From assembly GCA_937146805.1 (NCBI GenBank), contig CAKZRR010000036.1:62001-126000 (forward strand): DNA of 64,000 bases, read 5' to 3'. Made by a program: the position numbers and the translations under genes. This stretch comes from an uncultured Owenweeksia sp. (GTDB taxonomy: Bacteria > Bacteroidota > Bacteroidia > Flavobacteriales > Schleiferiaceae). Position 1 is the stretch's first letter. Each line of letters begins with the position of its first letter. Positions 5,422-51,614 of this stretch are shown in pieces. A model generated the notes under the pieces. It saw only the letters and a program-made list of their open reading frames with translations, did not search any database and was not told the DNA's origin.

Positions 5422-5425
5422 AATA

Positions 5426-35955: not shown

Positions 35956-36024
35956 ACGCTACAAATTAGAGTGTGTGTATATTTTTATTTTAACGTTAGA
36001 TATAAGTTAGTAAACGTTTGTCAA

Positions 36025-36801
36025 TCAGCTAATTTTAACGGACTCTACTTTAATCTTTTTTTTTACACCGCGAAATTTTTCGCTTTGCTCGATACTGTCC
36101 ATAATTTGATCTAAAATTTCAGAGGAGCTTTGATTGTAATCAATGTTTAAAGGTTGCTTAAAGCGAATACTTAATTCCACACCTTTCTTCTTTAGAAAAA
36201 GTCCTTTTTTATCAAAAGCTCTTCTAAAACCATCTACAACTACTGGTATTACTATGGGTTGAGTTTCTTTAATAATATGTGCGGTACCTCTTCGGCCTGG
36301 CTCAAATGGTGTGGTAGTGCCTTGTGGAAACGTGATTACCCAGCCATCATTTAAAGCCTTATAAATCTTTTTAATATCTCCCGGGTCTACGCCTCTGTCT
36401 ACCATTTTACCCGCCAGTCTCCAACTCCTTTTTATAGATACTGAGCCAACGTAGGCAAACAGCTTAGGCAAAAGGCCAGCTTTCATGGTTTCTTGAGCAG
36501 CTACAAAGTACACGTTAAGCTTCGGGTTTAGGAGGTAGCGCGCTTTATCAATCCTATCAAAAACACCCCACTTTGTAGAGCAAAAAACTTGAATTAAACC
36601 CGTAACATCGGCAAAATAGGTTTGATGATTACTAACAAAAATGACGTTGTTATTGGGAAGGTCTTTTAAAACCTTGCTACCGCTAACCTTTGTTTTGTTG
36701 GCTATGTTAAAGCGATAAAAAGCCACACTTCCAAACACAATTATCAAAAAGCGCTTAATTAAAAGTGAATTGCCAAAAGCGTCTGATAATCGTACTTTCA
36801 T
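36025..36801 (-). CDS. Lysophospholipid acyltransferase (PlsC-like)
   Basis: This 258-residue protein has an N-terminal hydrophobic segment (LLIKRFLIIVFGSVAFYRF) and the acyltransferase motifs FVSNHQTYFADV (HX4D) and VITFPQGTTTPFEPGRRG. It probably acylates lysophosphatidic acid or a related glycerolipid at the inner membrane. The genuine acceptor cannot be decided; ornithine-lipid or other lysolipid acyltransferases share these motifs. Confidence 0.9.
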   Translation of the reverse strand: MKVRLSDAFGNSLLIKRFLIIVFGSVAFYRFNIANKTKVSGSKVLKDLPNNNVIFVSNHQTYFADVTGLIQVFCSTKWGVFDRIDKARYLLNPKLNVYFVAAQETMKAGLLPKLFAYVGSVSIKRSWRLAGKMVDRGVDPGDIKKIYKALNDGWVITFPQGTTTPFEPGRRGTAHIIKETQPIVIPVVVDGFRRAFDKKGLFLKKKGVELSIRFKQPLNIDYNQSSSEILDQIMDSIEQSEKFRGVKKKIKVESVKIS

Positions 36802-36821
36802 TGATTGCTGCTGCTTGACGG

Positions 36822-36829
36822 CAAATATA
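36822..36829 (-). promoter_or_regulatory. -7 promoter box for the acyltransferase gene
   Basis: On the minus strand the sequence is TATATTTG (TAnnTTTG), 20 bases upstream of the start. Confidence 0.55.
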
Positions 36830-36852
36830 TAATTAATAAACAGGCCTCAAAT

Positions 36853-37479
36853 TTAAGAGGTCAATACCATTTGTTTAAGTTCACTTAAAATCATGGCTGT
36901 AGCACCCCAAACAATTTTTTCCTTTAAAACAAAAGTGGGAACGCTCATAGAAAACCCACGAACGTTTACCTTTTGATTTTTGTAGTTTTCATTATTCAAT
37001 AGCTCTAAGAAGGGCACCTCCAATATTTCAGCTACCTCACGGTCCTCTTTCTTAAAAACGGGAGGTGCCATAGCCTGTGCCACATAAGGATTTACTAAGA
37101 AGTTGCTAGGAGGAATATAGACGGGGCTCAGCTCTTTTATGATTTCAACTTCTTGTAAGTTTACGCCAATCTCTTCCTGAGCCTCGCGTAATGCGGTGTT
37201 TTTTAACGATTTGTCGTGAGGTTCAGCTTTGCCTCCCGGAAGACTCACCTGACCAGAATGCACACCTTTGTACTCTTTGCGTAGTGTTAATACAAAATGT
37301 GCTTGTTGGTTTTTTGGGTAAAGCAAAACAAGTACTCCCGCTTTTTTCGCCTTGACAAGAACAGAGTCATCGGGTAATGTTATTTGACGTGAACTTGGTG
37401 CTGCTAAGGAATGTGCTGAGGCACCTATAGGTTTTGTCAGCTCAACTATTTGAGTGAGTTTTTCAAAAGTCATTGGCAT
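36853..37479 (-). CDS. Nudix hydrolase, CoA pyrophosphatase-like
   Basis: From the ATG at 37479 (a second ATG lies at 37473) it is about 208 residues. The Nudix box is seen as SLPGGKAEPHDKSLKNTALR followed by EAQEEIG, with an LSPVYIPPSNFLVNPYVAQA segment typical of the CoA pyrophosphatase (NudL/YeaB) subgroup. It probably hydrolyses CoA or related nucleotide diphosphates. The opening TTG at 37515 is not a likely start. The gene is divergent from oxyR. Confidence 0.88.
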   Translation of the reverse strand: MPMTFEKLTQIVELTKPIGASAHSLAAPSSRQITLPDDSVLVKAKKAGVLVLLYPKNQQAHFVLTLRKEYKGVHSGQVSLPGGKAEPHDKSLKNTALREAQEEIGVNLQEVEIIKELSPVYIPPSNFLVNPYVAQAMAPPVFKKEDREVAEILEVPFLELLNNENYKNQKVNVRGFSMSVPTFVLKEKIVWGATAMILSELKQMVLTS

Positions 37480-37542
37480 ATTTGTAAAGTGGGAAAGTAG
37501 TATATACTTAGCCAAAAGTGGTGAACTATAAATATAATTTAT

Positions 37543-37550
37543 TACTTTTG
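37543..37550 (+). promoter_or_regulatory. -7 promoter box for oxyR
   Basis: TACTTTTG fits TAnnTTTG and lies 25 bases upstream of the oxyR start. Confidence 0.55.
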
Positions 37551-37575
37551 CAATTCAATATACAAAAACTATATA

Positions 37576-38520
37576 ATGACTATTACGCAACTCCAATATT
37601 TAATAGCAGTAGATAATCACCGTCATTTTGCTAGGGCGGCAGAAGCTTGTTTTGTTACGCAACCCACCTTAAGTATGCAGGTGCAAAAATTAGAAGAGGA
37701 GCTGGGTGTTCTACTTTTTGATCGTAGTAAGCATCCTGTAAGACCTACTAATATTGGAGAGAAAATTATTAAGCAAGCTCGCTCGGTTGTAAATGAAACA
37801 CATCGCATAGATGAAATTTTACAAGCCGGCAAAAATCAATTAGAGGGCTTGTTTAAATTAGGTGTAATCCCCACAGTAGCATCGTCTTTAATACCGCGAT
37901 TTGTGAAGTCCTTTCATCAAAAATTCCCTAAAATAAAACTTCAAATACAGGAGCTACAAACGGAGGAAATAATTGATAAACTAAGAATGGATGAATTAGA
38001 CGCAGGTATTGCTTCTACGCCATTAAATGAGAAAGGTATTTTAGAAAAACCTTTATTCTACGAACCTTTCATGGCGTTTATCCCTAAGGAACATAGACTG
38101 GGTAAAGAATCGTTTATTACAAATTCGGAATTAAATATTGAAGACATTTTACTGCTTAACCAAGGGCATTGTTTTAGAAACAGTGTGGTAAATATTTGTA
38201 AATATCGCAATCAAGCTTCAGAGCAAGCTATAGAGTTGGAAAGTGGCAACTTTGAAACATTAATTGGTTTGAGCAAGCAGGGGTTTGGTATGACGCTTGT
38301 GCCATACCTGCACGCATTAAATCTATCTGAGGAGGACCAAACCTTGGTTAAACCCATTGCAGATCCAAAACCAACCAGAGAAATTAGCCTGATTTACACA
38401 AGAGCAGAGTTGAAAATAAAGGTGATTGAAGAGTTGCATCGCGTTATCCGCGAAAGTGTTCCTGAAAAATTATTGAGTGAAAATCAGGAGGTGGTGAGCC
38501 CTTTACCTGATTTGGTTTGA
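37576..38520 (+). CDS. oxyR: Hydrogen-peroxide sensing LysR-type regulator OxyR
   Basis: This 314-residue LysR-family regulator has an N-terminal winged helix (FARAAEACFVTQPTLSMQVQ) and a substrate-binding domain. By my count cysteines fall at residues 199 and 208 (NQGHCFRNSVVNICKY), the same numbers as the redox pair Cys199/Cys208 of the E. coli protein, supporting direct peroxide sensing through a disulfide. No catalase or peroxiredoxin gene is adjacent in this window. Confidence 0.93.
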   Translation: MTITQLQYLIAVDNHRHFARAAEACFVTQPTLSMQVQKLEEELGVLLFDRSKHPVRPTNIGEKIIKQARSVVNETHRIDEILQAGKNQLEGLFKLGVIPTVASSLIPRFVKSFHQKFPKIKLQIQELQTEEIIDKLRMDELDAGIASTPLNEKGILEKPLFYEPFMAFIPKEHRLGKESFITNSELNIEDILLLNQGHCFRNSVVNICKYRNQASEQAIELESGNFETLIGLSKQGFGMTLVPYLHALNLSEEDQTLVKPIADPKPTREISLIYTRAELKIKVIEELHRVIRESVPEKLLSENQEVVSPLPDLV

Positions 38521-38524
38521 CAGG

Positions 38525-39259
38525 CTATTTTACATAAAATGGCCTTGGACTATACGAAACATTGCCACTAACATCTGTCACTTTCAATACTACCGAGTAA
38601 TTTAAAAGGCCTTGCCAAGTATTGGTTAGGGATATGGATTTGGTTAACAATGTGGTTGGTGCTCCACTGATTTGCTCAGTAACTTCGTCTCTAACATTTA
38701 TTAAATCTCCACTGGGTCCGGTTTCCCAAAGCTTAGCCGAAATTTCTGCAATACCTCCGGCATCCTGCATCTCATATGTAATGATAACGGGGCCCGTGTT
38801 GGCATTAAAAACATTCACACTGTCAAAATTAATAACCTTAACAAAAGGAGCTCTCAAGTCACCAACTTCAAAACTTTGATTCACCTCCGTCATATTTCCA
38901 TCAAGATCTGAGCAAATAACATTAATGGTATTTGTACCTTGAATATTAATTCCAGTCGGAACCTTTACGGAATATCGTATCTCATCCCATGTGCCCTCTA
39001 GATCACGTAATATTATATCATAAACATCAGCACCTGTTGATGTGTTACTTAGCCTGACTTCTGTGTTTTTCAATCCACTTTCATCCGAGTAACTCACAAT
39101 AACTTCAACGGTATCACCAATATTGACAGCATTATTAGGACTTTTAATAGTAACAAATGGGTTTTTCTGTTCCTTGCTTTTTTTATCCTTGCAGCCACTG
39201 GTGATTGCCATGAAGGTCGTTAAAATAACGAAAACGGAGATACAAGAAGTACGAAACAT
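38525..39259 (-). CDS. Lipoprotein with immunoglobulin-like domains, unknown function
   Basis: This 244-residue protein has a lipoprotein signal (VFVILTTFMAITSGCKDKK). The rest consists of two repeats of an Ig/cadherin-like beta-sandwich pattern: PFVTIKSPNNAVNIGDTVEV and APFVKVINFDSVNVF, each followed by a 'DESGLKNTEVRL' / 'DAGGIAEISAKLW' strand and a TDVSGN-like loop. It is probably anchored on a cell surface or in the periplasm. It ends four bases after the convergent oxyR. Confidence 0.75.
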   Translation of the reverse strand: MFRTSCISVFVILTTFMAITSGCKDKKSKEQKNPFVTIKSPNNAVNIGDTVEVIVSYSDESGLKNTEVRLSNTSTGADVYDIILRDLEGTWDEIRYSVKVPTGINIQGTNTINVICSDLDGNMTEVNQSFEVGDLRAPFVKVINFDSVNVFNANTGPVIITYEMQDAGGIAEISAKLWETGPSGDLINVRDEVTEQISGAPTTLLTKSISLTNTWQGLLNYSVVLKVTDVSGNVSYSPRPFYVK

Positions 39260-39332
39260 AATAGTAGTATTTGAACTGCTAAATTTATAAAAATAGATGC
39301 ATAAAAAACCTTGGACAGAACTCTTTTAAAAG

Positions 39333-39367
39333 AAAGCCTCATTTCTATGACAGAAATGAGGCTTTTT
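39333..39367 (-). terminator. Intrinsic terminator downstream of the SulP gene
   Basis: AAAGCCTCATTTCT and AGAAATGAGGCTTT are perfect inverted repeats around ATGAC with A/T tracts on both sides. It lies 28 bases beyond the SulP stop on the minus strand. Confidence 0.85.
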
Positions 39368-39395
39368 AATTTACAGCAATATCTGCAATACCTGT

Positions 39396-41273
39396 CTAAG
39401 CAGGAGTAGTAGCTTCCAGTCTTGGGTTTTGAGCATTTAACACTTGAGACAGCCATTGCTGACAATCGATAAAGGTTTCAAATACTTGCGATGCTGGAAT
39501 CATTTGTGGAACAATTTCCATGTTTTCTAGGGTTTCGCGGACCTGAGGTACAGGACCCGAAATGGCTAGTATTACATCTTTCTGTGCTAAATCTTCTAAC
39601 ACCTGAATCAAAGCATTTACACCTGATTGATCCATAAACGGAACTTTCTCCATGCGGATAACTACCAATTTAGCATCTGGTACATGGCTTAGCATCTCCT
39701 TAAATTCCGATACGAATCCAAAAAACAGTGGACCTCTTAAGTCTTTAAAAATTACTTTCTCACGTATTTCCTTGCTTACTTCCAATTCTTCCAACCAGCT
39801 GGCGTCATGCTCTTTATGGTCATCTAAACTACAAACAGTAGCTTCAGAGGCCGTCATATCTCCCATACGTTTCATAAATACAAAGGCCGCCATTACCAGA
39901 CCAATACCTACTGCATATACCAACTGCCAAAATACAGTAAGCAAAAGCACCACAAGGAATATCGCTTTCTCTGAGTTCTCCATTTTAGGAAATGCCTTTA
40001 ATCCCTTGTAATCCATAACACCAATACCCACTGTAATTAAAATACCTGCAAGCACGGCTGCTGGAATTTTAGAAGCTAAAGGTCCTAATGAAATAACCAT
40101 GGCAAATAGTAATAAACCGGCTATCATTCCCGATAATTTAGTTTTACCACCTGATTGAATGTTTACTACGGTTCTGATGGTAGCACCTGCACCCGGAATT
40201 CCACCGAACATGGAGGCTAACGAGTTACCTATGCCTTGACCAATTAATTCTTTATTAGAATTGTGTTTTGTTTTGGTCATGTTATCCGCCACCACGGAGG
40301 TTAACAATGAGTCAATTGCTCCTAACAAGGCTAATAAAAGAGCCGTAACGAAGTAAGGAGCCATGGAAGAAATAGAAAATTCGCTAAAAATACTGCTGTA
40401 AAATACAGGATAACCTCCGGGTATTTCTTTGATTAGGAGATAATCGAGTTGTAAAAAATAGGCCCCGCCAGAAACCACAAAAAGAGCCACTAAAGCACTG
40501 GGAATAATGGTTGTTATTTTTTTAAAACCATAAATAATTACAATGGTAATAAGGCAAATGAGTAGTTCGGTTGTGTTTATGGAACGAAAACCATTTAACA
40601 AGTAATTAATGGAGCCATTAACTCCCTTGGAGGCATTGGTAGCCAACAATACTGCTTCGGTGTGAATTTCCTCTTGAGTAATTTGCTCCGACCTACTAAT
40701 TGTTTCCTTAAATTCTTCTAAAACCAAAATTCCATCTTGCGCCTCTTCCGCTAAAATTCTGTCCAAAATAAGTTCTTCGGCATGAGGTTTAAATCGCTCT
40801 ACCACTTCGGGGTCGGTGCCCGAATAATAACCAATGGCAGGCAAAATTTGGGTTATTAATATGATAACTCCAATTCCCGTCATAAAGCCAGACACCACCG
40901 TACTGGGAATGTATTTAATAAAGGAACCAGCCTTTATTACCCCTAGTAGAATTTGAAAAATACCGGCTAGTAAAAACACGGCTAAAATTATAGGAAGGGC
41001 TCTTTCAATATTGCCTTCAAAGTTTTGTAAAACGCCACCAACAAGCACCATGCTTAGGGCTGTCATGGGAGCTGTTGGACCACTTATTTGCGTAGAGGTA
41101 CCTCCAAATAATGCAGCAAAAAATGCTAAAAACGCTGCTCCATACAATCCAGCACCGGCTCCTAAGCCTGATTGTTCGCCAAAGGCTAAGGCAAGTGGAA
41201 GGGCTACAATACCTGCAGTAAGACCACCAAATAGGTTGCCTTTAAAATATTTAAAGGTGAAGAAATTCTTCAT
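39396..41273 (-). CDS. SulP family anion transporter with STAS domain
   Basis: From the ATG at 41273 (MKNFFTFKYFKGNLFGGLTAG) it is 625 residues. It shows 10 or more membrane segments, family motifs (GGTSTQISGPTAPM, FMTGIGVIILITQI, GGIPGAGATIRT) and a C-terminal STAS domain (DAKLVVIRMEKVPFMDQSGVNAL). It probably moves bicarbonate, sulfate or another anion. A hydrophilic insertion of about 80 residues (about 152-232) lies between the fifth and sixth membrane segments. The neighbouring small gene at 41368 is upstream on the same strand. Confidence 0.93.
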   Translation of the reverse strand: MKNFFTFKYFKGNLFGGLTAGIVALPLALAFGEQSGLGAGAGLYGAAFLAFFAALFGGTSTQISGPTAPMTALSMVLVGGVLQNFEGNIERALPIILAVFLLAGIFQILLGVIKAGSFIKYIPSTVVSGFMTGIGVIILITQILPAIGYYSGTDPEVVERFKPHAEELILDRILAEEAQDGILVLEEFKETISRSEQITQEEIHTEAVLLATNASKGVNGSINYLLNGFRSINTTELLICLITIVIIYGFKKITTIIPSALVALFVVSGGAYFLQLDYLLIKEIPGGYPVFYSSIFSEFSISSMAPYFVTALLLALLGAIDSLLTSVVADNMTKTKHNSNKELIGQGIGNSLASMFGGIPGAGATIRTVVNIQSGGKTKLSGMIAGLLLFAMVISLGPLASKIPAAVLAGILITVGIGVMDYKGLKAFPKMENSEKAIFLVVLLLTVFWQLVYAVGIGLVMAAFVFMKRMGDMTASEATVCSLDDHKEHDASWLEELEVSKEIREKVIFKDLRGPLFFGFVSEFKEMLSHVPDAKLVVIRMEKVPFMDQSGVNALIQVLEDLAQKDVILAISGPVPQVRETLENMEIVPQMIPASQVFETFIDCQQWLSQVLNAQNPRLEATTPA

Positions 41274-41367
41274 AATGATGTAAAATGTAATGGATGAAAA
41301 TAGTAGTCTGGCTGTAGCCAAAATAGAGTTTAACTAAAGCCTACGAATAGAAAGTGACAAGTGAATT

Positions 41368-41721
41368 TTAAACCTCGGGAGGAGGGGAGACAATCTCCGA
41401 AAAATGGGAAGGAACCTTTAAAAATTGAGTGGGCGTAGCGGCTGATGTTAGAAATGCCATGGATTTAGCATCGGTATTTGATTGTTTAAAAAGCGGAAAA
41501 AAGTCAATAGACGGAGCTTCTTCGTCCATGTCACATTCTTTTTCTTGGAGCTCTTCTAGTGTATTGGCATAACACCAGCTAAGTATAGGATTACTAGAAT
41601 GTAAAACCGAAACCATTGCAGGAAATAGCAAACCGAAACTTAACAAAAGTGGCCAAAAAATAGAGATTCCTTTGCGCTTGCATAATAATCTAAACCCGGC
41701 ATGTGTTAAAATTCCTTTCAT
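41368..41721 (-). CDS. Small membrane-associated protein of unknown function
   Basis: This 117-residue protein has one hydrophobic segment near the N-terminus (IFWPLLLSFGLLFPAMVSVL), a cysteine in the following loop, an acidic stretch (EKECDMDEEAPSIDFF) and a proline-rich end (VSPPPEV). It lies 94 bases upstream of the SulP gene in the same orientation and may be transcribed with it. No domain is recognised. A wide open frame on the opposite strand at 41672-41866 is not convincing. Confidence 0.65.
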   Translation of the reverse strand: MKGILTHAGFRLLCKRKGISIFWPLLLSFGLLFPAMVSVLHSSNPILSWCYANTLEELQEKECDMDEEAPSIDFFPLFKQSNTDAKSMAFLTSAATPTQFLKVPSHFSEIVSPPPEV

Positions 41722-41921
41722 CGTTGTAAACGGTAAAGTTAACGGAAAATACAGCGCCTTAGAAATGGGTTTTTATGTCATTTTTGAGTCTCCCATTATT
41801 TTACAAATAGCATTACCACTGCTCAACGGATTACTTGAAGAAAATCCTAGTTATTCAAATCAGTAAAATCCTTACATTACACCAACTCTTTTACTCAGGG
41901 TTTTGACTTAAATAATTTGAA

Positions 41922-42503
41922 ATGAAAATCATATTTCAGTTCTCTCTTGTAATAACATTTATACTTTTAACTGCTTTTTCATGTGGTAAAAAAAAGAAAG
42001 ACCCTGAAAGTTTACCGGCAATTACCCAAACAGGCAAAGGTACTTTTGGTTGCCTAATAGATGGTGAATTATGGTGGCCCAGGCATTACTCCAATAGTTT
42101 TATGGCTCCTAGGGTGTTGAGTACCATGTATGAATGGAATAAAGAAAACGAACGAATACTTACCATTAACGCGAATTATCGTGGACGAAATGATAATTAC
42201 CCTAAAGAATATCTTAATATGGTAATTAACACTGACGCTATTGAGGAGAAGGTATATTTAGATGTATCCTTTTTGGGAGACAGCCTAGCTCGGTCAGGTA
42301 CAATTTATACTGCCATGGATTATAGAGGCGGCCCATGCAGTACTTACAGATCCATTTTAGGTGATAATTCTTGGGTACTGTTCTCGCGATTTGATACAAC
42401 AGCCCACATAGCTGCAGGAACCTTCTCTTTAAACCTTTTAAATATGGAAGATGAAATGGACACGGTTAAAATACGTGATGGTAGATTTGATCTTTATTTT
42501 TAA
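41922..42503 (+). CDS. Lipoprotein of the TQTGxxTFGC type (DUF6252-like)
   Basis: This 193-residue protein has a lipoprotein signal (FSLVITFILLTAFSCGKKK), followed by LPAITQTGKGTFGCLIDGE, a signature of DUF6252-like surface lipoproteins. A second cysteine in GGPCSTYRSI could pair with the one in TFGC. The protein is beta-rich. It is a single gene on the plus strand; no partner is obvious. Function unknown. Confidence 0.8.
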   Translation: MKIIFQFSLVITFILLTAFSCGKKKKDPESLPAITQTGKGTFGCLIDGELWWPRHYSNSFMAPRVLSTMYEWNKENERILTINANYRGRNDNYPKEYLNMVINTDAIEEKVYLDVSFLGDSLARSGTIYTAMDYRGGPCSTYRSILGDNSWVLFSRFDTTAHIAAGTFSLNLLNMEDEMDTVKIRDGRFDLYF

Positions 42504-42612
42504 ACAGTGCCAAAAGTTTACTAATACCTGTTGCCTTGCTAATGCAGGATTAAACCAACATTGGTGCAGAGATAATATTAACTACACCATAGTATTAGGT
42601 GTTAAGCCAACA

Positions 42613-42816
42613 TAAGCTCATTTACCTTATCTAAATGCAAGTCAACATTTTGCATGCTGTCATTTATAGTGTATTCAACCGTATGCTGCGGTAATAAGCC
42701 TTGATTGTCAGTGTTTTGTACGCTATAAGTTCATTTGAATGGCGCTCAAAATGGGGGTTATGTAGCTGTAAGGCCGGGTTGTATTTTTTAATGCCATCCT
42801 GCAGCTGCTCTAAATC
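42613..42816 (-). pseudogene. Internally deleted remnant of a second S41 peptidase gene
   Basis: Two segments correspond to the downstream S41 gene. Bases 42613-42706 match 42917-43011 (C-terminal codons; 9 mismatches in about 93 by eye), and 42723-42816 match 44071-44164 (N-terminal codons; 4 mismatches in 94). On the minus strand they still encode LEQLQDGIKKYNPALQLHN and NQGLLPQHTVEYT. More than 1 kb of the middle of the gene is missing and there is no start or stop of its own. This is a relic of a tandem duplication followed by an internal deletion. Confidence 0.85.
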
Positions 42817-42880
42817 ACCAATATAAGGGGAGAAGTGGCCAATACCAGGATAGTAGTGTATTAAACGAAGTTCAGCTATC

Positions 42881-44248
42881 TTATTTTTTCAATAATGATT
42901 GTTTATGGCTATGGATAAGCTCATTTACCTTATCTAAATGTAAATCAACATTTTGCATGCTGTGATTCATCGTGTATTCAACCGTATGCTGGGGTAACAA
43001 ACCTTGGTTACTAGTAAGCTGGAAGTTGGAAGTTGGAAATGCAAAACGATACCTTGGAATACCAATTTCTAACTGACTATTAGCTAAGGTGATGTATTGC
43101 TTAGAACCTGCCGCAAAACCCTCGTAGCGCGTGCCCGTTTCTTCGCCAATAATAATAGCGCCATTATATTCTTTTAAATAACGCGCTAGCATACTGCCAG
43201 CTGAATAAGTTCTACCGTTTACCAGCACATATATTTTTCCGGTAAAGGCCAACTTACTAGGTTTAGGGCTTTTGTAAACTTTTTCTTTCCCTTCCCAAGA
43301 AACGGTTTTCTTTAAAAATGGCGCTTGATACAGCCCCGTATGGATAAAAGGCACTATATCATCTGCCAATTCATTTCTACCTCCTGTATTTCCTCTAAGG
43401 TCAATCACCAAATACTTTGTATCTCGCTGCTGCAGCTCCATAAAAATAGACTTGTAAAGCGCTCTTGACTTTATGCCGTGCTTTTCAATTTTAGCAGCGC
43501 TAAAAGAGGGCAGGGTTAAATAGCTAATATCTGCTTGGTGTTTTAAGGTGTAAAAAACATCTTCTTTGGCTTTAGTAGTTGGCGCGGCCATTTTTTTATG
43601 ATTGGCAAACTGCGCGTCTCTTAGTAAAGCAGTCACCGTTGTTTCAACTTCCTGCCCTAAGTTGTTTTTAACGGTAATTTTGAAAGTGCCCGCTTGACTT
43701 ACATACAGGTAATACATCCACGAAAAACCAAGCTCTATACTTTGATTACTGTATGTTTTTATAGTGCCATCCGAAGGAGTACAAGAGCGGATTAGTTCCA
43801 ATATAGACTTTGCCTCTAAACCATTAATGGTTAGTATTTCATTTCCTCTGGTTAATCTTTGCTCATTGGAGTTATCATGCCAAACATACATTTTGCCTTG
43901 CCTAATTCTTATACTTAGCGGAAGGTAATGATACTCATTTTTTAAAAAACCGGCATGTACCGAATCCTTCCAATTACCCAAGGCAAAATGCCCCTCATTG
44001 CTTAAAGCACAAAGTTGACTCACATATTTAAAAGCCTCCACTAAACTAAGCGAATCACCTTTTAGCCCCGCTATAAGTTCATCTGAATGGCGCTCAAAAT
44101 GGGGGTTATGTAGGTGTAAGGCGGGGTTGTATTTTTTAATACCATCCTGCAGCTGCTCTAAATCCGCCTTAATTTGCGCATGCGAGAGATACTGCGCATT
44201 AGTAACTACGCTGATTAAAAATAAAAATAGACCGAAAAGGTTTTTCAT
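42881..44248 (-). CDS. S41 family peptidase (tail-specific protease type), exported
   Basis: From the ATG at 44248 it is 455 residues with a signal peptide (NLFGLFLFLISVVTNAQ). The catalytic half contains VIDLRGNTGGRNELAD, the nucleophile region VNGRTYSAGSMLARYL, and GEETGTRYEGFAAGSKQY. Tricorn/CtpA-like S41 enzymes cleave peptides from their C-termini in the periplasm. A GTG at 44278 would add a non-signal extension and is rejected. A deleted copy of this gene lies directly downstream (42613-42816). Confidence 0.9.
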   Translation of the reverse strand: MKNLFGLFLFLISVVTNAQYLSHAQIKADLEQLQDGIKKYNPALHLHNPHFERHSDELIAGLKGDSLSLVEAFKYVSQLCALSNEGHFALGNWKDSVHAGFLKNEYHYLPLSIRIRQGKMYVWHDNSNEQRLTRGNEILTINGLEAKSILELIRSCTPSDGTIKTYSNQSIELGFSWMYYLYVSQAGTFKITVKNNLGQEVETTVTALLRDAQFANHKKMAAPTTKAKEDVFYTLKHQADISYLTLPSFSAAKIEKHGIKSRALYKSIFMELQQRDTKYLVIDLRGNTGGRNELADDIVPFIHTGLYQAPFLKKTVSWEGKEKVYKSPKPSKLAFTGKIYVLVNGRTYSAGSMLARYLKEYNGAIIIGEETGTRYEGFAAGSKQYITLANSQLEIGIPRYRFAFPTSNFQLTSNQGLLPQHTVEYTMNHSMQNVDLHLDKVNELIHSHKQSLLKK

Positions 44249-44660
44249 TTTGGTATTCGGGTATTTTGCAAAAGCCACATGCTGCGAGTTTAAAAGCTAA
44301 AAAGGTACGTTGCACATTGGGTAGTACAAATCTATAAATTGTTAGGTGGTAACAAAAAGGACTTTTTTGACGAAAACATAGAAGGAGGGGAGAGAATACC
44401 TTATTAATTCCGTCTTTCCAGCTAAATTACGTATTTGCTAAGGTGTTAATATGGCAACCTGACAGGGATTGACGATAAAGCATTATTTTAATTTCATAAA
44501 AACTGCCAATATGACCATTACGAACACCAATGTCAGTTGATAAAATGTGGATAAATAAAGTCTTCAATGCGCTAACCTTTACGACCAGTGATACTCGTAA
44601 GATATTTGAATATTTTATAAGAAACTGATTACTATTTTGGCACGACCCTTGAAAAGCAAA

Positions 44661-44684
44661 CAGTCGCTAACAACTGAGCGACTG
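44661..44684. repeat. Inverted repeat upstream of the five-gene operon
   Basis: CAGTCGCT and AGCGACTG are perfect 8-base inverted complements separated by 8 bases. No T-tract follows, so it is not a standard terminator. It may be a regulatory stem-loop or a remnant of an insertion. Confidence 0.6.
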
Positions 44685-44823
44685 AAGCTAGGTTTAACTG
44701 GGCACTAAAGATTTGACGGTCAATATGCACAGTTATTTTGAGGCTGCAAATGTAAGCGCATTTTCTATTTGTGCAACATTTTTTTTCTCTTCCCCATTTC
44801 AGTTTAATCTCGGTTGATTAGCA

Positions 44824-44843
44824 ACTAAGGTATTGACCTTAGT
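44824..44843. promoter_or_regulatory. Palindrome in the operon leader, possible operator
   Basis: ACTAAGGT and ACCTTAGT are perfect inverted complements separated by ATTG. The site ends 32 bases before the first ATG of the operon, where a repressor or attenuating hairpin would act. No regulator gene is present within the operon itself. Confidence 0.5.
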
Positions 44844-44875
44844 ACATTAATTATTAATCCCTTAAAACATTAAAA

Positions 44876-45106
44876 ATGGGAAAAAATCAACACGTAGTAA
44901 AACATCAGGAAGGGTGGGCTGTGAAAGGCGCAGGTAATGAAAAAGCCACTAAGGTTACATCAACTCAAAAGGAAGCTATTGAAGCGGCCAGGGAAATTGC
45001 AATAAATCAGCGATCCGAAGTTGTAATTCATGGTAGGGATGGCAAAATCAGAGATAAGGATAGTTACGGTAATGATCCCTTTCCTCCTAAAGACAAAAAG
45101 CACTAG
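44876..45106 (+). CDS. DUF2188 family small protein
   Basis: This 76-residue protein matches DUF2188: HVVKHQEGWAVKGAGNEKAT, then TQKEAIEAAREIA, then SEVVIHGRDGKIRDKDSYGNDP. The family has a small alpha/beta fold; its function is unknown. It is the first gene of a five-gene operon; the next start is two bases after its stop. It does not end in glycine, so it does not look like a ubiquitin-type modifier. It could be an accessory, sensor or antitoxin-like subunit of the system, which is speculative. Confidence 0.88.
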   Translation: MGKNQHVVKHQEGWAVKGAGNEKATKVTSTQKEAIEAAREIAINQRSEVVIHGRDGKIRDKDSYGNDPFPPKDKKH

Positions 45107-45108
45107 TT

Positions 45109-46116
45109 ATGGCAATAGATAGAAACCAGCACCTTAAAAAAGTTTTGGATACACACGACATCCAAAAACTACCAGAATTACCTACGTACATTGAGAAAAA
45201 GAATAAAGTTAAGAAAGCTCTCTCGGCAAAATTTGCCAGTGAGAAGGCTTCGATGCCTATTGATTCGGGATCGTACGCGAAAGGTACAAGCATCAATACC
45301 AAGTTTGATATTGATTGCTGTATTCCTTTTAGGAAAAAGATCTCTGACTCTGATAAAGGCTTTAGTTCTCTCGAAAAAATGTACAATGCTGTACATGATT
45401 ATCTAAGAAACGAATATGTTGATGAAGATGATGATATTGTCAAAGAGGATGTTCGGAAGCAGAAGGTTTCAATAGGTATGAAATTTAAATTCGATGATGG
45501 AGATGAATTTGAACTAGATGTAGTTCCGGGTAGGGAAAGGCCAAACAATGGAAGTTATAATGATGAAAGTACGGACCTAAGTCTTTATATCAAGCCATCC
45601 CAAAGAACCAAAAAAGAAGAGGAGGATAACAAAACAAGGATCCGGACAAATGTTAAAAAGCATGTTGAACTCTTAAAAGGTGAGTCTCGCAAGCATGAAA
45701 GGAAGATAGCGAGATTACTGAAGGTCTGGAAAACGGAAAGAAAAAATAAAAATGGAGGGAAGCTTATAAAGTCTTTTGTAATGGAGGTTTACACTAGAGA
45801 TGCGTTTGATGCCTGCGATAATTTACCAAGTGGACTTTGGGAAAAAACTAAAATGGTGATGACATATATTATTGAGAGGATAGAATCTACCAAGTTAGAA
45901 GACCCAGCCAATTCGAGTAATATAATATCGGACTCCATGAGTTCCACAGCCAAAACTGACACGAGAAGGGCTATGGAGAAAACCATCTCGGATATTGACG
46001 AGGATGGTGATACGATCAAGGATTACTTTCCAATTAATGAAGAATACGATGTTGAAGAGGAGGATACGTCTTCATCCAATTCTGCATCTTATCTATCTAC
46101 AAATAAGTTTGGTTAA
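45109..46116 (+). CDS. OAS/CD-NTase-like nucleotidyltransferase with C-terminal glycine tail
   Basis: This 335-residue protein has the polymerase-beta-type nucleotidyltransferase signature: GSYAKGT (G54, S55), FDIDCCI (D67, D69) and ELDVVPGRE (D137), with a helical C-terminal domain (RLLKVWK, YIIERIES) containing LEDPANSSNI, which resembles the conserved OAS/CD-NTase segment. All catalytic residues appear present, so it could make a nucleotide second messenger; nucleotidylation of another target is an alternative. The end (about residues 308-335) is acidic and serine-rich, ending NKFG. In type II CBASS a C-terminal glycine of the cyclase is the residue conjugated by Cap2; the E2-E1 protein encoded next would do the same here. 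Confidence 0.87.
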   Translation: MAIDRNQHLKKVLDTHDIQKLPELPTYIEKKNKVKKALSAKFASEKASMPIDSGSYAKGTSINTKFDIDCCIPFRKKISDSDKGFSSLEKMYNAVHDYLRNEYVDEDDDIVKEDVRKQKVSIGMKFKFDDGDEFELDVVPGRERPNNGSYNDESTDLSLYIKPSQRTKKEEEDNKTRIRTNVKKHVELLKGESRKHERKIARLLKVWKTERKNKNGGKLIKSFVMEVYTRDAFDACDNLPSGLWEKTKMVMTYIIERIESTKLEDPANSSNIISDSMSSTAKTDTRRAMEKTISDIDEDGDTIKDYFPINEEYDVEEEDTSSSNSASYLSTNKFG

Positions 46117-46119
46117 GCA

Positions 46120-48267
46120 TTGGAAGAACTACTATCGAACAAAATCCATAGACTATTGGGAGAGGATGAGGATTTGAAGATCACATCCCCTTTTACTATG
46201 GAGGATTATTGGTGCATAGGGACAATTCAAGTTAGCTACCTAACTGCCAAACTTGATTTTGAAACCTGGGTACCTCATAACTATCCTCTAACTCTCCCCA
46301 ATGCTGATAATATTTCCATCGTTTTTAAAAACGCTGATTTGATTGGCTTTGACCATATCAATATGGATGGGTCAGTTTGCTTTCACCCAGAAAAAGATTC
46401 TGACTTTGAACGTAAGTTTTTAGAGGAGATTAAAGGGCTGAAGGATTGGATCCAAAAGTTTTACATTCTCAATAGTGAATCAGAAAGGTATGATTACTTA
46501 ATCCATCCTGTAAACCCCAATAATAGGGTGCAAGTGTTTTTCTCAGATTTGGATAGGTCGTTTAGAAAGCATGAGTACGGAGGATTTCTTTATTCTCCTT
46601 TTGACAAGAGCATAGTCCATACGAGGTTTGAGCAAAATCAAAGATTAGACAGCTACTTCAGAATTGGCTTTGGGAAAAATCAAGAGGATCAATGGTCAAA
46701 GTCATTTCTGGCAATCCTTAGTGAAGAATATGTAAGGAAAGGCATTTGGTACTTTATTGAAGATGAACCGTTAATCCCTAGTGAAAGAAAGCGAAAACCA
46801 GTTAAATCCTGGAAAGATATACAAAGATATTTTTCCCAAGAGTTTATGCAGTATTTATACGATGGTCTTAAAAGGAACTTCAACAAAAGTTTTTTTACTG
46901 ATGACCTTTTGTTTCTCACAATCGGCTATAGAATTCCTTCTGACGAGGGTTATGAAGTGCATTGGGATTTAATTTTAATTAGCAAGGACTCAATCCCGAT
47001 TGAAACAGAACGAATTCCCAAGGATGAGCAAGTAGGAGGAAAGAAATACAGGGGTGCTGCTAAGGAAGTAGAAATCAACTGGGGCTTAACCACCAACATG
47101 AGCTATGATCGTTTTTTTGGAAGAGGTCGTTTTTGTGATACTCTTATTAACTCAAGGGTTTTATTGATTGGCTGTGGTGCGTTGGGCTCAACGATAGCGG
47201 AGACATTGGTGCGTGGCGGGCTAAAGAAACTATTTATTGAGGACTTCGATAACGTTGCTAGTGGTAACATTTGCCGGGCCAAGTTCAATTTAAATGATGT
47301 GGGTAAACAGAAAGTTTCTGTGTTAGCTGAAAAACTAAATCAGATTTCGCCTCACGTTGAGATTGTACCTTTTGACGTGAAGCTAAATCTATTTAAAAAT
47401 TCCACGCTCGAAAGCGATTTAGAAAAATCTGTGGATTTAATAATCGACTGTAGTACTGACCCTGAAGTGACCTTTATACTTGACTCGCTTGAAAAGCGGC
47501 CAAGGGTTTTTAGTCTGGCCCTGACCAATAAGGCAAAATCACTAATAAGTATTACTGGTCAGGATTTGACTGTGAACGCACATAATTTATTCTCTCACTT
47601 TGAGAATGAACTACCATCATATTATGAAGGTGCTGGTTGTGGCTATGCTACTTTTGAAGCAAGCTTCAATGATATAGGTGCATTGGTGCACCCTGTTTTT
47701 AAAAGAATCAATAGGCAGCTGCAGCTACAGGAAAGCACAAACTCCCAAACCCTGGTAGCAAAAGATCTTTCTGATACCAAAGGAATAGAGCTAATCACTT
47801 ACACACAGCTATTTCAACGAGACTTAAAATCCTACCTGTATATAGCTGATTCTGTATTTCCTGAAATTGAAAAAGCGGTTAAAGATCATTACCCAAAAGA
47901 GTTTGGAGGTGTATTTATAGGAAACTCAACTTCCAGTCACTCTCTATTGATAGAAGATATTTTGATACCAGATGCCTATGAAAATGGTAGGACTGTCTTT
48001 GTCCGTCACCCAGGCTCACTGAATGATAGGCTAAAACTAATTCATCAAGAATCTGATGGCAGAATTGATTATGTAGGAGAGTGGCATTCTCATCCTGACG
48101 CAGCGGTTGTCCCAAGTTCAACAGATAAAAAAGCGATGGATATTATCTCTAAAAACAAAGATATTAATACTACCAGCCCCATAATGGCAATAATGGAGGT
48201 TAGGAAAGACCACACAAGCATAGGATTCTATATTTATAAAGACAATAAGATTTACAGTTATGAGTGA
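46120..48267 (+). CDS. Single-chain E2-E1-JAB protein (ubiquitin-like conjugation and deconjugation)
   Basis: This 715-residue protein has three parts. (1) An E2-like domain, about residues 1-115, with GFDHINMDGSVCFHPE, where Cys87 is the likely catalytic residue. (2) A ThiF/E1 adenylyltransferase, about 340-540, with LLIGCGALGSTIAETL (G351-S357), DNVASGNICRAKF and a candidate catalytic Cys507 in GAGCGYATFEAS. (3) A JAB/JAMM protease, about 580-715, with Glu594, His656, His658 and Asp669 (EWHSHPDAAVVPSSTD), matching HxHx10D. In type II CBASS, Cap2 (E2-E1) and Cap3 (JAB) are separate; here they are fused. The start is a TTG at 46120, four bases after the previous stop; the next ATG (46198) would remove the first helix. 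Confidence 0.93.
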   Translation: MEELLSNKIHRLLGEDEDLKITSPFTMEDYWCIGTIQVSYLTAKLDFETWVPHNYPLTLPNADNISIVFKNADLIGFDHINMDGSVCFHPEKDSDFERKFLEEIKGLKDWIQKFYILNSESERYDYLIHPVNPNNRVQVFFSDLDRSFRKHEYGGFLYSPFDKSIVHTRFEQNQRLDSYFRIGFGKNQEDQWSKSFLAILSEEYVRKGIWYFIEDEPLIPSERKRKPVKSWKDIQRYFSQEFMQYLYDGLKRNFNKSFFTDDLLFLTIGYRIPSDEGYEVHWDLILISKDSIPIETERIPKDEQVGGKKYRGAAKEVEINWGLTTNMSYDRFFGRGRFCDTLINSRVLLIGCGALGSTIAETLVRGGLKKLFIEDFDNVASGNICRAKFNLNDVGKQKVSVLAEKLNQISPHVEIVPFDVKLNLFKNSTLESDLEKSVDLIIDCSTDPEVTFILDSLEKRPRVFSLALTNKAKSLISITGQDLTVNAHNLFSHFENELPSYYEGAGCGYATFEASFNDIGALVHPVFKRINRQLQLQESTNSQTLVAKDLSDTKGIELITYTQLFQRDLKSYLYIADSVFPEIEKAVKDHYPKEFGGVFIGNSTSSHSLLIEDILIPDAYENGRTVFVRHPGSLNDRLKLIHQESDGRIDYVGEWHSHPDAAVVPSSTDKKAMDIISKNKDINTTSPIMAIMEVRKDHTSIGFYIYKDNKIYSYE

Positions 48268-49066
48268 TAAAATTAATATTGGTGATTTGTTTGCTGGCCT
48301 TCAAAGTCAAATTCAAGCTAGGTTCAGTACTAATCGTAAGTTTATCGGACATGCGGTATCAAAAGGAGATTCATTGGAAAACGTATGGATAGAATGGCTT
48401 CGTCAATACCTCCCAAATCGTTATTGTGTCGACAAAGCTTTTGTCATAGACTCAAAGGGACAAGTCAGTCAGCAGCTTGACTTGGTGATTTACGACCAAC
48501 ATTTTACTCCTTTTGTATTTAAGCAGGATGGTGTCATCTACATACCCGCAGAAGGGGTTTATGCAGTTTTTGAAGTAAAGCCAGAAATTACAAAGGGATA
48601 TATTGAATACGCTGGAGAAAAAATAGCTAGTGTGCGCAAGCTACATCGTACTTCCACAAACATTATTGATCGGGGAAAACAATACGACCCTCGTCCACTA
48701 ACTAAGATAATTGGGGGGCTACTGGCTGTGGAAAGTTCAATTTCAGAAGAAACGGTAAAAAAGCATATTAAAGCGCTTAAACCATTAGAAGCCTTTGATA
48801 TGGGGTGTGGTGTTTCTACTGGTAGTTTTTATGTGAACTATGAGGGAAAGGAAGACCCCGACATTCAGGATTTCAATAAGCGCATTAGTGAATACTACAA
48901 AAACCGGGAAATAAGCGAAGTCGAATTCAGTGCCGCCAAACATTCATTAGTCACTTTTTTTCTACAGCTATCCCGATATCTGCAACAATCAATAGGTAGC
49001 GTGGCAGCCATTGATCTTGGAGCATATGCCAAGGCTATTAAATTTGAAATTGATGAAGAATTATGA
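48260..49066 (+). CDS. DUF6602 family protein, possible PD-(D/E)XK nuclease
   Basis: This 268-residue protein resembles DUF6602: KGDSLENVWIEWLRQYLPNR, then FVIDSKGQVSQQLDLVIYD and IYIPAEGVYAVFEVKPEI. Asp74 in QLDLVIYD and Glu105-x-Lys107 in FEVK have the order and spacing of a PD-(D/E)XK nuclease core, with Glu40 in the preceding helix. DNA cleavage is plausible but unproven. It overlaps the E2-E1-JAB gene by eight bases and the next gene by four, so translation is coupled. As the only visible nuclease candidate it may be an effector or a processing subunit. Confidence 0.82.
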   Translation: MSDKINIGDLFAGLQSQIQARFSTNRKFIGHAVSKGDSLENVWIEWLRQYLPNRYCVDKAFVIDSKGQVSQQLDLVIYDQHFTPFVFKQDGVIYIPAEGVYAVFEVKPEITKGYIEYAGEKIASVRKLHRTSTNIIDRGKQYDPRPLTKIIGGLLAVESSISEETVKKHIKALKPLEAFDMGCGVSTGSFYVNYEGKEDPDIQDFNKRISEYYKNREISEVEFSAAKHSLVTFFLQLSRYLQQSIGSVAAIDLGAYAKAIKFEIDEEL

Positions 49067-50142
49067 GTAAAGCTGTTAAATACGCACAAAATGGGGCAGT
49101 CATTTTCGGGATAACTAATGCCTTGCTAAACGCTTTGAATCAGCTTGAAGAAAAAAAAGGCAATCTCAATTTGAAGTTTGATTGGTCAAGGCTCTTGCAA
49201 GCTGGGGGCAAAGGAGCATTGGTAGGTGGAGTAGGGGGAGCTGTGATAGGTGGTATAATAGATTGGGAGAATAGCAGAGAAGAGCCACTTAATACGAATG
49301 CTATAATGAACAGGATTATCACAGATTTAAAATTATCAAGTGAAGATCCTGTTTACCAGACGCTTTCGGCCAAGGCAGCGGTTATTGTAAAGCTCATTCA
49401 ATCGCGATTTAAAAGTCAATTAGGTGGAAAGCTGATAAAAATAGGATCAACAGAGGAAAATACAGCCCTTCAGGAAGACTTCGATATTGACATCACAATA
49501 CCCTTCAAGCCCAACAGCTTTGCTTCAACTTCAATTATGTTTGAAGAACTATTCTCATTTTTGGAGAGTGAATACGATGACAAGGACTTGGTTAAAATAA
49601 GGAAGCAGAAGAAATCAATCGGAATTTTATATCAAATAGGAGATTACGATTGCAAGATTGATCTAGTTCCATATAAGCAGAGTAAAACGCAGGATAAGAC
49701 TATTGGCTACCTTTTTGTAAACAATAATTCATTGTTCAGAGAAGACAGCTACACTAAAACAGATATTTCCGCGCTCAAAAGCATAAACCTGACGCCAACT
49801 CAGCAAAAGCTAGTTGTAGCTTTTAAAGGTTGGAAAAGAAAGTTGGATCTCCCACTTAGTTCGCATCTTCTAAAGCTGCTTATAGTAGAGGCCTACAAAA
49901 AACAACCTAACCCCATACCAAGAGCTTTCACAGGTAAAGTTCTGATGGTAGCGAGATATATAGAGGATAATATCGAAGAGAGAAGAGTCGTAAGTCTTGA
50001 GAATACAAATAATGTTTTAACCCAAATGCCTTATAGTGAAAAGAGGCAAATTCGAACAGCCTGTAGAAGACTTCGTGAGGACTATGATTATCAGCCAAAT
50101 TCAATGTTAGAATATTTTGAACCGACTACTAGTTTGATTTGA
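49063..50142 (+). CDS. Second nucleotidyltransferase with N-terminal glycine-zipper membrane segment
   Basis: This 359-residue protein has an amphipathic N-terminal stretch (AVIFGITNALLNAL) and a glycine-zipper segment at about residues 48-66 (GGKGALVGGVGGAVIGGII), likely membrane-inserting. It then has a nucleotidyltransferase domain: KIGST (G128, S129), DFDIDITI (D141, D143) and CKIDLVPY (D200). The C-terminal helical part (VVAFKGWKRK, VARYIEDNIEE, CRRLREDYDYQPNS) parallels the protein encoded at 45109, so they are paralogues. It does not end in glycine. The membrane segment could make it an effector or membrane-tethered synthase; this is inference. Its start overlaps the previous stop by four bases (ATGA). 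Confidence 0.87.
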   Translation: MSKAVKYAQNGAVIFGITNALLNALNQLEEKKGNLNLKFDWSRLLQAGGKGALVGGVGGAVIGGIIDWENSREEPLNTNAIMNRIITDLKLSSEDPVYQTLSAKAAVIVKLIQSRFKSQLGGKLIKIGSTEENTALQEDFDIDITIPFKPNSFASTSIMFEELFSFLESEYDDKDLVKIRKQKKSIGILYQIGDYDCKIDLVPYKQSKTQDKTIGYLFVNNNSLFREDSYTKTDISALKSINLTPTQQKLVVAFKGWKRKLDLPLSSHLLKLLIVEAYKKQPNPIPRAFTGKVLMVARYIEDNIEERRVVSLENTNNVLTQMPYSEKRQIRTACRRLREDYDYQPNSMLEYFEPTTSLI

Positions 50143-50252
50143 AAGGTCTTTAAAATATTAGATTTCTGATATCAACGTGACTATGTATTACGGACATTTC
50201 TTTATTTTTCCTATAATTAATATTATGTAAAATTATAGTTTCTAAAACAAAA

Positions 50253-50278
50253 AAGGGAACAGTTAAAACCGCTCCCTT
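50253..50278 (-). terminator. Terminator of the TPR-protein gene
   Basis: Read on the minus strand, AAGGGA and TCCCTT form a six-base stem followed by TTTTTGTTTT. It lies 29 bases past the stop at 50307 and also separates this gene from the convergent end of the five-gene operon. Confidence 0.65.
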
Positions 50279-50306
50279 CCTTGGCATCTATCCAACAAGT
50301 AACAAC

Positions 50307-51614
50307 TTATCCTAAACCATCCAATTTGGCTTGGGTATCTTTCGCTTCTTGATACATCTTAAGCTTATAATACACTTCTTTAAGCGCTTTTAAAGTATCT
50401 TCATCCTTAGGCTCTAAACTGTGTGCTTTTTCAAAATACGGTAACGCCAATTTAAATTCAGCATCCTGCTTCTTTTTAAATGCATTGTACTTGGTAGTTT
50501 CGTTAAAGCCCAATTTGTTCATGTCTTCGGTAAATGCATTGGCTTTCTCTACATGTATTAATCCACGCATGTAAATGGGGTCCATATAATCTTCATCCAA
50601 AGCAATGGCTTTATCATATGCTACCACCGCCTTCTCGGCATCTTTTATATCGGTTTGATAAATAAAACCCATAATATAATGCAGCATTTTGCTGTTAGGA
50701 TCTTTAACAATGGCTGCTTCTAAGTTTACCAAAGCTTTGTCAAACTCTTCCTTTTCTAAATAGGTTTGTAATTCGGCTCGTAATAAAGTTTCATCTTCCG
50801 GAAAAGCGGCTCTACCTTTTTTAATATAAGAATCGTAACCCGCTTGGTCGTCTTTCTTTAAACTCAAATTGGCCAATGTTACATACAATGAAGCACGAAT
50901 ATCACCTTCCACACGCGGATCCTTGTATTTTTCTAATCTAACCAAACGATCCATTTGTTTACGGCTAGCAAACTCTCGCTCTTCTCCGTTTTCTATGCTG
51001 GTGGCAAAGTACTGGCGACCTTGATAATTCAAAGCAACCAATTCTTTATTAATAGCAATGGCTTCATCAATACTTCCTGCATTTTGCGCCATTACAGCCG
51101 CATTATATAGCATACTGGTATCGGTGCCCATTTCCATTTCCTTTTTAAGATCGTAGCAACGTTTAAAGCTCATATAAGCCTCGGCAAACTCTTTATTGTT
51201 GTTTTGAGTTATTCCTTGGTTGCCATAAATCGCAGCAATGCCTGATAAATCTGTACGAGCGGCATCACTCTTAGAGCCTTTACCTGTGCTGCTCTCAAAA
51301 GCAATTAATTTTTTATAGGATTCGGTAGCTTTCGTCAAGGCATCTGCATCCAACGCTTTAATCGTAGCATCCTGACTGGTGGCAATTTGGTAATTTATTT
51401 TTCCATTGTAAAAGTAAAACTTGGCTAGGTCTTTCGATTTTATGGCAGATACCTCTTTAGTTTCAATTAGCTGGCTGGCTTCATCTATGTATTGCTTCGC
51501 TTCAGGTATATCCTGACGGTTAAAAGCAATAATAGCGCTCGAAATTTTGGGTCCTTCTTGTGCATTGATAAACCCGGCAAATAATAGGGTTAAAATAACT
51601 ATGGTACGTTTCAT
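50307..51614 (-). CDS. Exported TPR-repeat protein
   Basis: From the ATG at 51614 it is 435 residues, with a signal peptide (TIVILTLLFAGFINAQ) and a series of TPR-like helical repeats (DEAIAINKELVALNYQ, EFDKALVNLEAAIVKDP, DAEKAVVAYDKAIALDE, LPYFEKAHSLEPKDE). It is likely a periplasmic protein-protein scaffold. An in-frame upstream start at 51683 would place a non-signal extension ahead of the signal and is rejected. Role unknown; it is monocistronic. Confidence 0.85.
   Translation of the reverse strand: MKRTIVILTLLFAGFINAQEGPKISSAIIAFNRQDIPEAKQYIDEASQLIETKEVSAIKSKDLAKFYFYNGKINYQIATSQDATIKALDADALTKATESYKKLIAFESSTGKGSKSDAARTDLSGIAAIYGNQGITQNNNKEFAEAYMSFKRCYDLKKEMEMGTDTSMLYNAAVMAQNAGSIDEAIAINKELVALNYQGRQYFATSIENGEEREFASRKQMDRLVRLEKYKDPRVEGDIRASLYVTLANLSLKKDDQAGYDSYIKKGRAAFPEDETLLRAELQTYLEKEEFDKALVNLEAAIVKDPNSKMLHYIMGFIYQTDIKDAEKAVVAYDKAIALDEDYMDPIYMRGLIHVEKANAFTEDMNKLGFNETTKYNAFKKKQDAEFKLALPYFEKAHSLEPKDEDTLKALKEVYYKLKMYQEAKDTQAKLDGLG

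Follow-up and report, generated by a model that had tools for sequence, protein, structure and literature searches.

A predicted type II CBASS operon with fused Cap2 and Cap3, a CD-NTase ending in an invariant Phe-Gly dipeptide and a tailless second CD-NTase

The window, i.e., the whole stretch of 64,000 nucleotides analysed here, carries a tight row of five genes on the + strand at positions 44876-50142, which by their sequences are assigned to an anti-phage operon of CBASS type II that has a Cap2-Cap3 fusion. ORFs were called mechanically. The first gene of the probable operon (44876..45106) encodes a small DUF2188 protein of 76 aa (Pfam DUF2188, 1.7e-26; PADLOC PDC-S16, 1.1e-39). It is followed by CD-NTase1, a tailed cyclase of 335 aa (45109..46116), the Cap2-Cap3 fusion with its E2, E1 and JAB parts (46120..48267), the NucC endonuclease effector of 268 aa (48260..49066) and CD-NTase2, a tailless paralogue of 359 aa (49063..50142) whose first 4 bases are shared with the end of the NucC gene. 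Both nucleotidyltransferases were recognised by PADLOC as CBASS cyclases with model PDLC00803 (4.7e-66 and 7.3e-35, respectively). General libraries responded more weakly, and both cyclases fell below the cut-offs of the Pfam SMODS and NCBIfam CBASS cyclase models (for CD-NTase1, 19.5 of 26.5 bits with SMODS and 55.2 of 200 with CBASS_cyclase_b). Type II CBASS operons usually contain one CD-NTase each, which is not a strict criterion; the operon in the window has two, with a part added and no defining part lost.

The NucC protein matched E. coli NucC 6p7o (1.1e-46), the PADLOC NucC model (4.5e-93) and Pfam DUF6602 (1.4e-32). It aligned to 6p7o over residues 6-224, with D74, E105 and K107, which we take to be the NucC active-site positions, in register; judged by these matches, the effector gene of a type II CBASS is present in the operon. 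In the Cap2-Cap3 protein (PADLOC E1-E2 model PDLC00827, 2.5e-201, residues 7-715), the E2 Cys87 is encoded at 46378-46380, the ThiF/E1 Cys507 at 47638-47640, and a JAB peptidase occupies approximately residues 570-715. Its ORF has a TTG start, as called mechanically, and lies in frame with CD-NTase1, with TAA GCA between the two. Pfam matches were obtained for ThiF (1.1e-22) and Prok-JAB (3.5e-12), and for Prok-E2_B at just 0.0078, below the cut-off; the E2 part is assigned from the PADLOC model together with conservation of H79...C87. The protein matched the Cap2 structure 7to3 at 1.1e-17, and at 7.4e-32 by profile. C507 aligns with residue 548 of 7to3 (position counted by hand in the alignment), an Ala in the crystallised chain that is presumably the mutated catalytic Cys.

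Relatives were collected by scanning 84,980 species genomes with a Cap2 alignment (A1) and two peptide patterns, which detected 84 relatives, of which 80 loci were retained; a scan of genome contigs with the single protein found nothing, whereas the alignment scan did. The CD-NTase1 C-terminus was readable in 77 of these loci, which together with the window gave 78 loci and 77 distinct proteins, as L067 and L070 are identical and were counted once. For the frameshifted L061 the tail was taken from the second fragment. L022, L091 and L094, which have no CD-NTase1 match, were left out of the C-terminus count, and L005-L009, located on the same contigs as L080, L057, L058, L043 and L036, were counted once. 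The 75-row alignment of CD-NTase1 (A3) leaves out L061, L070 and L084, the last of which lacks its N-terminus at a contig end. By phylum, the loci besides the window belong to Bacteroidota (72), Campylobacterota (2), Pseudomonadota (2) and Myxococcota (1).

The E2 Cys (C87) is present in 79/79 Cap2 proteins and the E1 Cys (C507) in 77/79, the latter count being biased, with losses under-sampled, because one of the two search patterns contains that Cys. The JAB residues E594, H656, H658 and D669 are each conserved in 78/78. The two totals refer to proteins passing length filters; L091 and L094 contain a partial Cap2. On these residues, the protein is predicted to combine a Cap2, with E2 and E1 domains and the catalytic cysteines C87 and C507, with a fused Cap3, a JAB peptidase that has its Glu, HxHP and Asp. 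The fusion of Cap2 with Cap3 seen in the window recurs in 7 of the 77 other CD-NTase1-containing loci. The 6A-MBL Cap2_3 fusion (NCBIfam NF058523) likewise has both parts in one protein; unlike it, the fusion in the window reaches 158.3 bits against a cut-off of 320, and no Pfam match to a metallo-beta-lactamase, the partner required of 6A-MBL, was found among the five operon proteins. The JAB domain is fused to one or the other of its neighbours, to Cap2 in the clade of the window and to NucC in ten loci in which one ORF matches both (L025, L051, L060, L061, L064, L066, L067, L070, L076 and L079). L022 has a Cap2-Cap3 fusion with approximately 6 kb of upstream sequence, in which no CD-NTase1 match was found.

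CD-NTase1 was modelled with AlphaFold from a 75-sequence alignment at a mean pLDDT of 90.3, with values of at least 90 at 261 of the 335 residues. The core matched B. fragilis CdnB 7ljo (Z 23.8, rmsd 2.6 over 267 residues), tied with E. coli CdnC 6u7b (Z 23.7, rmsd 3.3 over 274). G54, S55, D67, D69 and D137, presumably the active-site residues, are invariant in the 75-row alignment, and with this GS...DxD...D site and the predicted fold the protein can be classed as a CD-NTase. In 49 of the 50 structural alignments listed, the match ends at model residues 308-318 (at 324 with Serratia CdnG 8hsb), which indicates that what follows is an addition after a complete CD-NTase.

The preliminary description had singled out this addition as a flexible, acidic and Ser-rich tail of about 28 residues, ending NKFG at the stop. 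Positions 46033-46116 correspond to codons 309-335 and the TAA of the ORF; residues 309-335 read INEEYDVEEEDTSSSNSASYLSTNKFG, with 5 E, 2 D, 6 S and one K, and the stop directly follows the GGT codon of Gly335. The tail and its composition are thus as described, and only the length needs correction, to 27 residues plus the stop. Flexibility is supported by the model, in which residues 317-335 (46057..46113) are the sole segment of CD-NTase1 with pLDDT below 50. A wrong stop or a frameshift was rejected as the origin of the tail, since the ORF is open and the homologues end at the same dipeptide. The beta-grasp fold and di-glycine end of ubiquitin-like modifiers are replaced here by a CD-NTase fold and a single Gly; CD-NTase1 is not a ubiquitin-like modifier by fold and may function like one.

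The terminal Phe334-Gly335 dipeptide (46108..46113) was the most uniform part of the tail: FG occurs within the last 6 residues of all 77 distinct CD-NTase1 proteins from the 78 Cap2-linked loci and forms the exact C-terminus in 73 of them, counts that are not independent, the loci being related, many of them close kin, and all collected via Cap2. As every sampled locus is Cap2-linked, paralogues and the published set serve as the outside control. Among other ORFs of at least 200 aa in the same loci (mechanical calls, antisense included), 15/533 end in G and 1/533 in FG, and a chance Gly was rejected on comparison with these ORFs. F334 and G335 are found among the 29 invariant columns of the 75-row alignment, together with the catalytic residues. 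Five operon homologues from the same order end in NQFG, ERFG (three times) and QQFG, and position -3 is R, N or K in 67/77. The tails vary away from the FG end, many being Pro-rich and those of the window's clade Ser-rich. With Gly335, CD-NTase1 has the terminal Gly or Ala of type II CBASS. The preliminary description had staked its reading of the tail, as a configuration fit for Cap2, on conservation of the Gly in homologues that keep the operon. The Gly is kept, and the invariant FG and the conserved catalytic residues of the Cap2-Cap3 neighbour support that reading at the level of sequence.

Four CD-NTase1 proteins continue past FG by 1-4 residues, namely L017 (+Y), L021 (+EIE), L073 (+RGIE) and L089 (+L). 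L073, from Mesonia mobilis (CD-NTase1 4896-5858, Cap2 5839-7512), has the sole intact-frame Cap2 among the 79 without the E1 Cys C507; GY takes the place of GC, and the rest of the motif is normal. The other Cap2 without this Cys, in L025, is frameshifted, and the CD-NTase1 of L025 still ends FG. The chance that L073 falls among the extended tails is 4 in 77, or approximately 1 in 19. Having neither the E1 Cys nor a free Gly, L073 would be consistent with conjugation through the Gly, as a single case, and may represent a natural loss of conjugation.

CD-NTase2 was correctly described earlier as ending in TTSLI, as read from ORF 49063-50142. Over model residues 74-355 its predicted fold matched CdnD 6p8u (Z 18.9, rmsd 3.7), in a weaker model with a mean pLDDT of 67.6. 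Of the 78 loci, 14 have a second CD-NTase, which is of a hairpin type in 12 and lacks the hairpin in two (L023, 8865-9716; L032, 8795-9601); among the 63 loci whose sequence extends 3 kb or more past the JAB gene, the number is 13. In the hairpin type, G128, S129, D141, D143 and D200 are invariant (12/12). Frames are open in all 14 second CD-NTases and none ends in Gly, in agreement with the earlier view that just the first enzyme looks like a modifier substrate. CD-NTase2 ends 3-9 residues past a Tyr-Phe pair, where CD-NTase1 has 26-38 more; because it stops where the CD-NTase1 tail begins, a modifier role of this type is ruled out for it.

The N-terminal ~70 residues of CD-NTase2 contain two predicted helices (3-33 and 41-71) forming a Gly-rich hairpin (residues 3-71, 49069..49275), whose glycines G11, G16, G51 and G55 are invariant in 12/12. 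In the window protein the two helices reach best 19-residue hydropathy values of 0.94 and 1.37; the highest values among relatives are 1.75 and 2.46, and a usual threshold for membrane segments is 1.6. For the second helix the other 11 proteins span 1.17-2.46, and 6 of the 12, the window not among them, exceed 1.6. In L057 and L037 the hydropathy of the cyclase core equals or exceeds that of the hairpin. A membrane role of the hairpin appears likely for half of the 12 and only possible for the window, and the element may serve either membrane association or oligomerisation.

NucC is present in 9/14 two-cyclase loci. L047 and L075 have no NucC match and carry CD-NTase2 right after Cap3, with a protein of 290-295 aa containing hydrophobic stretches (by eye) just upstream of CD-NTase1; in L037, L055 and L057 a protein with hydrophobic stretches (by eye) precedes CD-NTase2. 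The absence of NucC from L047 and L075 had made CD-NTase2 a candidate effector. This candidate was lowered, as both loci have the hydrophobic-stretch protein upstream of CD-NTase1, and CD-NTase2 is probably an added part and not the effector.

CD-NTase2 shares 23% identity with CD-NTase1, and the copy in the window has diverged (end branch 3.18). On the CD-NTase1 tree, a quick tree with long branches, the two-cyclase state requires 8 changes, 7 of them forced by starred branches, which points to exchange or repeated loss. The branch separating CD-NTase2 has a value of 95 by SH-aLRT only and is not taken to prove a single origin. None of the 7 other fused Cap2-Cap3 loci with CD-NTase1 has CD-NTase2. 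In a sample of 395 order-level genomes, full-length proteins of the CD-NTase2 type were found three times, all in Cap2 operons (3/3). One more distant match was observed in genome G490 (L101).

The terminal Gly rule in Cap2/Cap3 operons is already published (Jenson 2023, PMC10097602), and the main result adds a new member to what is already known. According to that work, 1,583 Cap2/Cap3-linked cGAS proteins end in Gly or Ala with a varying penultimate residue, and the terminal Gly/Ala was not found to be conserved where an operon lacks Cap2 and Cap3 or the E2 domain. In E. coli, deletion of the terminal Gly abolishes conjugation and, with T4, cGAMP production (PMC10097602; commentary PMC10449767), and the E. 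coli study describes the physiological targets of such conjugation as undetermined (PMC10097602). In B. cereus, Cap2 joins the cyclase via Ala331 to PspA and Cap3 reverses this (PMC11153139). The operon in the window shares with the type II CBASS of E. coli TW11681, V. cholerae, P. aeruginosa and E. cloacae (PMC10097602) a CD-NTase with terminal Gly, an E1-E2 protein, a JAB protein and an effector of the nucleotide-activated kind. It differs from those systems in the fusion of Cap2 with Cap3, the fixed penultimate Phe, NucC and the second, tailless CD-NTase. As in the B. cereus system (PMC11153139), the cyclase would be joined by Cap2 through its C-terminal residue with reversal by Cap3; unlike CD-NTase1 with its Gly335, the B. 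cereus cyclase ends in Ala331 and targets PspA. The CdnC/NucC CBASS of E. coli MS115-1 (6p80, 6u7b, 6p7o) is similar in NucC (1.1e-46) and CD-NTase fold (Z 23.7); it uses HORMA and Trip13, according to the structure titles, whereas the window has Cap2-Cap3.

The known Gly rule is hereby extended to mostly Bacteroidota operons (72/77 loci outside the window) and sharpened, as Phe-Gly is fixed and not Gly alone, a pattern suggestive of a specific pocket in Cap2 proteins of this family. A fixed Phe preceding the Gly in this group was not met in the open-licence literature, in searches that did not have the Phe as a subject. Also absent from the open-licence literature searched were tails that continue beyond the Gly, operons of this sort with a second, tailless CD-NTase, and the pairing seen in L073 of an intact-frame Cap2 lacking its E1 Cys with a Gly covered by further residues. 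A companion Cap2 study, an E1-E2 fusion paper, may cover part of these points.

The genes, catalytic residues, predicted fold and disorder, invariant Phe-Gly and tailless paralogues observed here are, with high probability, best explained by a CD-NTase1 that is a modifier conjugated via Gly335 by Cap2, with reversal by Cap3, NucC as the executioner and CD-NTase2 acting independently of Cap2. The CD-NTase1 core would present the terminal Phe-Gly on 19 disordered residues as a modifier handle. The E1 part of Cap2 would adenylate Gly335, take CD-NTase1 as a thioester on C507 and pass it to the E2 Cys C87, and Cap2 would join it to amino groups of target molecules, thereby priming the cyclase; the fused JAB domain (Cap3) would cleave the bond between CD-NTase1 and target. 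After infection the cyclase would synthesise a cyclic oligonucleotide, probably cA3, that switches on the NucC nuclease and results in cell death; cA3 is the ligand of NucC. CD-NTase2, with its complete catalytic site, would most likely be a second, Cap2-independent signal source, possibly membrane-associated. For the window operon, the chemical steps, the nucleotide, the targets and the role of CD-NTase2 are inferred.

The Phe-Gly end might instead be a docking peptide for Cap2 or another partner that is joined to nothing, with conservation reflecting binding alone. The Phe is indeed as invariant as the Gly (77/77), beyond what conjugation chemistry alone needs, and the penultimate residue varies among the 1,583 published cGAS proteins (PMC10097602). 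However, docking alone has no need of the conserved E1, E2 and JAB catalytic residues, the Gly stands exactly at the stop in 73/77, and conjugation as published requires the terminal Gly (PMC10097602), so that pure docking is very improbable. Docking and conjugation may both be true, the Phe serving E1 binding and the Gly the chemistry. L017, L021 and L089 keep the E2 Cys, the E1 Cys and the JAB HxHP...D motif, and their extended tails could be precursors trimmed by Cap3, which would then be a precursor-processing enzyme, as for ubiquitin. That all four extended proteins carry inactive tails is a reasonable second option, though not the one we favour: it agrees with the missing E1 Cys of L073, one of the four, and is opposed by the intact motifs of the other three.

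A different division of roles would have CD-NTase2, not CD-NTase1, drive NucC, with conjugation of CD-NTase1, possibly onto CD-NTase2, coupling both. The CD-NTase2 gene directly follows NucC with the 4-base overlap, the 14/78 second CD-NTases are of two types and lie behind Cap3 or an effector gene, and full-length matches in the 395 order-level genomes are confined to Cap2 operons (3/3); an acceptor, PspA, is on record for B. cereus CBASS (PMC11153139). Nevertheless, 64/78 loci (50/63 with at least 3 kb to the right of the JAB gene) show no second CD-NTase, which is therefore not needed in general, and we regard this scheme as unlikely. Somewhat less likely still, CD-NTase2 would be a passenger derived from some other defence module, or a duplicate undergoing decay. 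Its low identity to CD-NTase1, the long end branch of the window copy, the 8 changes of state on the CD-NTase1 tree (7 forced) and its absence from all 7 other fused Cap2-Cap3 loci would suit such an origin, but the catalytic residues and the four hairpin glycines are invariant in 12/12, the frames are open in 14/14 and the gene overlaps NucC. Returning to CD-NTase1 as the modifier, we tentatively put forward, at a rather low probability, a two-cyclase CBASS with divided labour, in which CD-NTase1 is the conjugatable modifier with an obligatory Phe-Gly and CD-NTase2 a tailless, hairpin-bearing, possibly membrane-bound independent sensor or dedicated acceptor of CD-NTase1. If CD-NTase2 is the acceptor, modifier and target would both be nucleotide synthases of one operon. 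Where an operon has a tailless second CD-NTase, that enzyme provides both a candidate acceptor encoded on the spot and a natural control.

Cap2 proteins of this family are uncommon: they were found in 1/88 genomes of the taxonomic family (E 1e-10), the window's own, and in 6/395 genomes of the order (E 1e-60), the window's own included. Viral relatives were absent from the search with alignment A4, and one weak locus (L105), left out of further use, was obtained with A1. The plasmid search gave two weak CD-NTase matches, which were not used. The gene order from 50307 rightward is kept in the same-genus genome G026; in the 15 kb of G026 examined, nothing matches the ORFs at 36000-50300 of the window, among them the CBASS genes, as expected of an accessory island. 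No tRNA was found in the 64,000-nt window, nor were direct repeats of at least 16 nt flanking the operon within 42400-51000. Promoter and terminator searches were near the shuffled level (21 versus a shuffled mean of 17.2, and 4 versus 4.3, respectively) and were not used.

Small proteins of differing make are encoded directly before CD-NTase1, the DUF2188 protein in the window (44876-45106) and a 104-aa protein in L057, L058 and L062. A homologue of the DUF2188 protein (phmmer, E 1e-4) was detected upstream of CD-NTase1 in 1/80 loci of the Cap2 scan, L032. In L019 (4360-4983) and L020 (4296-4955), relatives from the window's clade, LexA-like repressor genes (by eye) take this position, which suggests damage-linked control. 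Farther upstream in the window, partial repeats were observed at 42612-44164 (120 nt at 83% and 96 nt at 96%), and stretches of the minus-strand gene 42881-44278 recur past its 3' end, like a decayed tandem copy.
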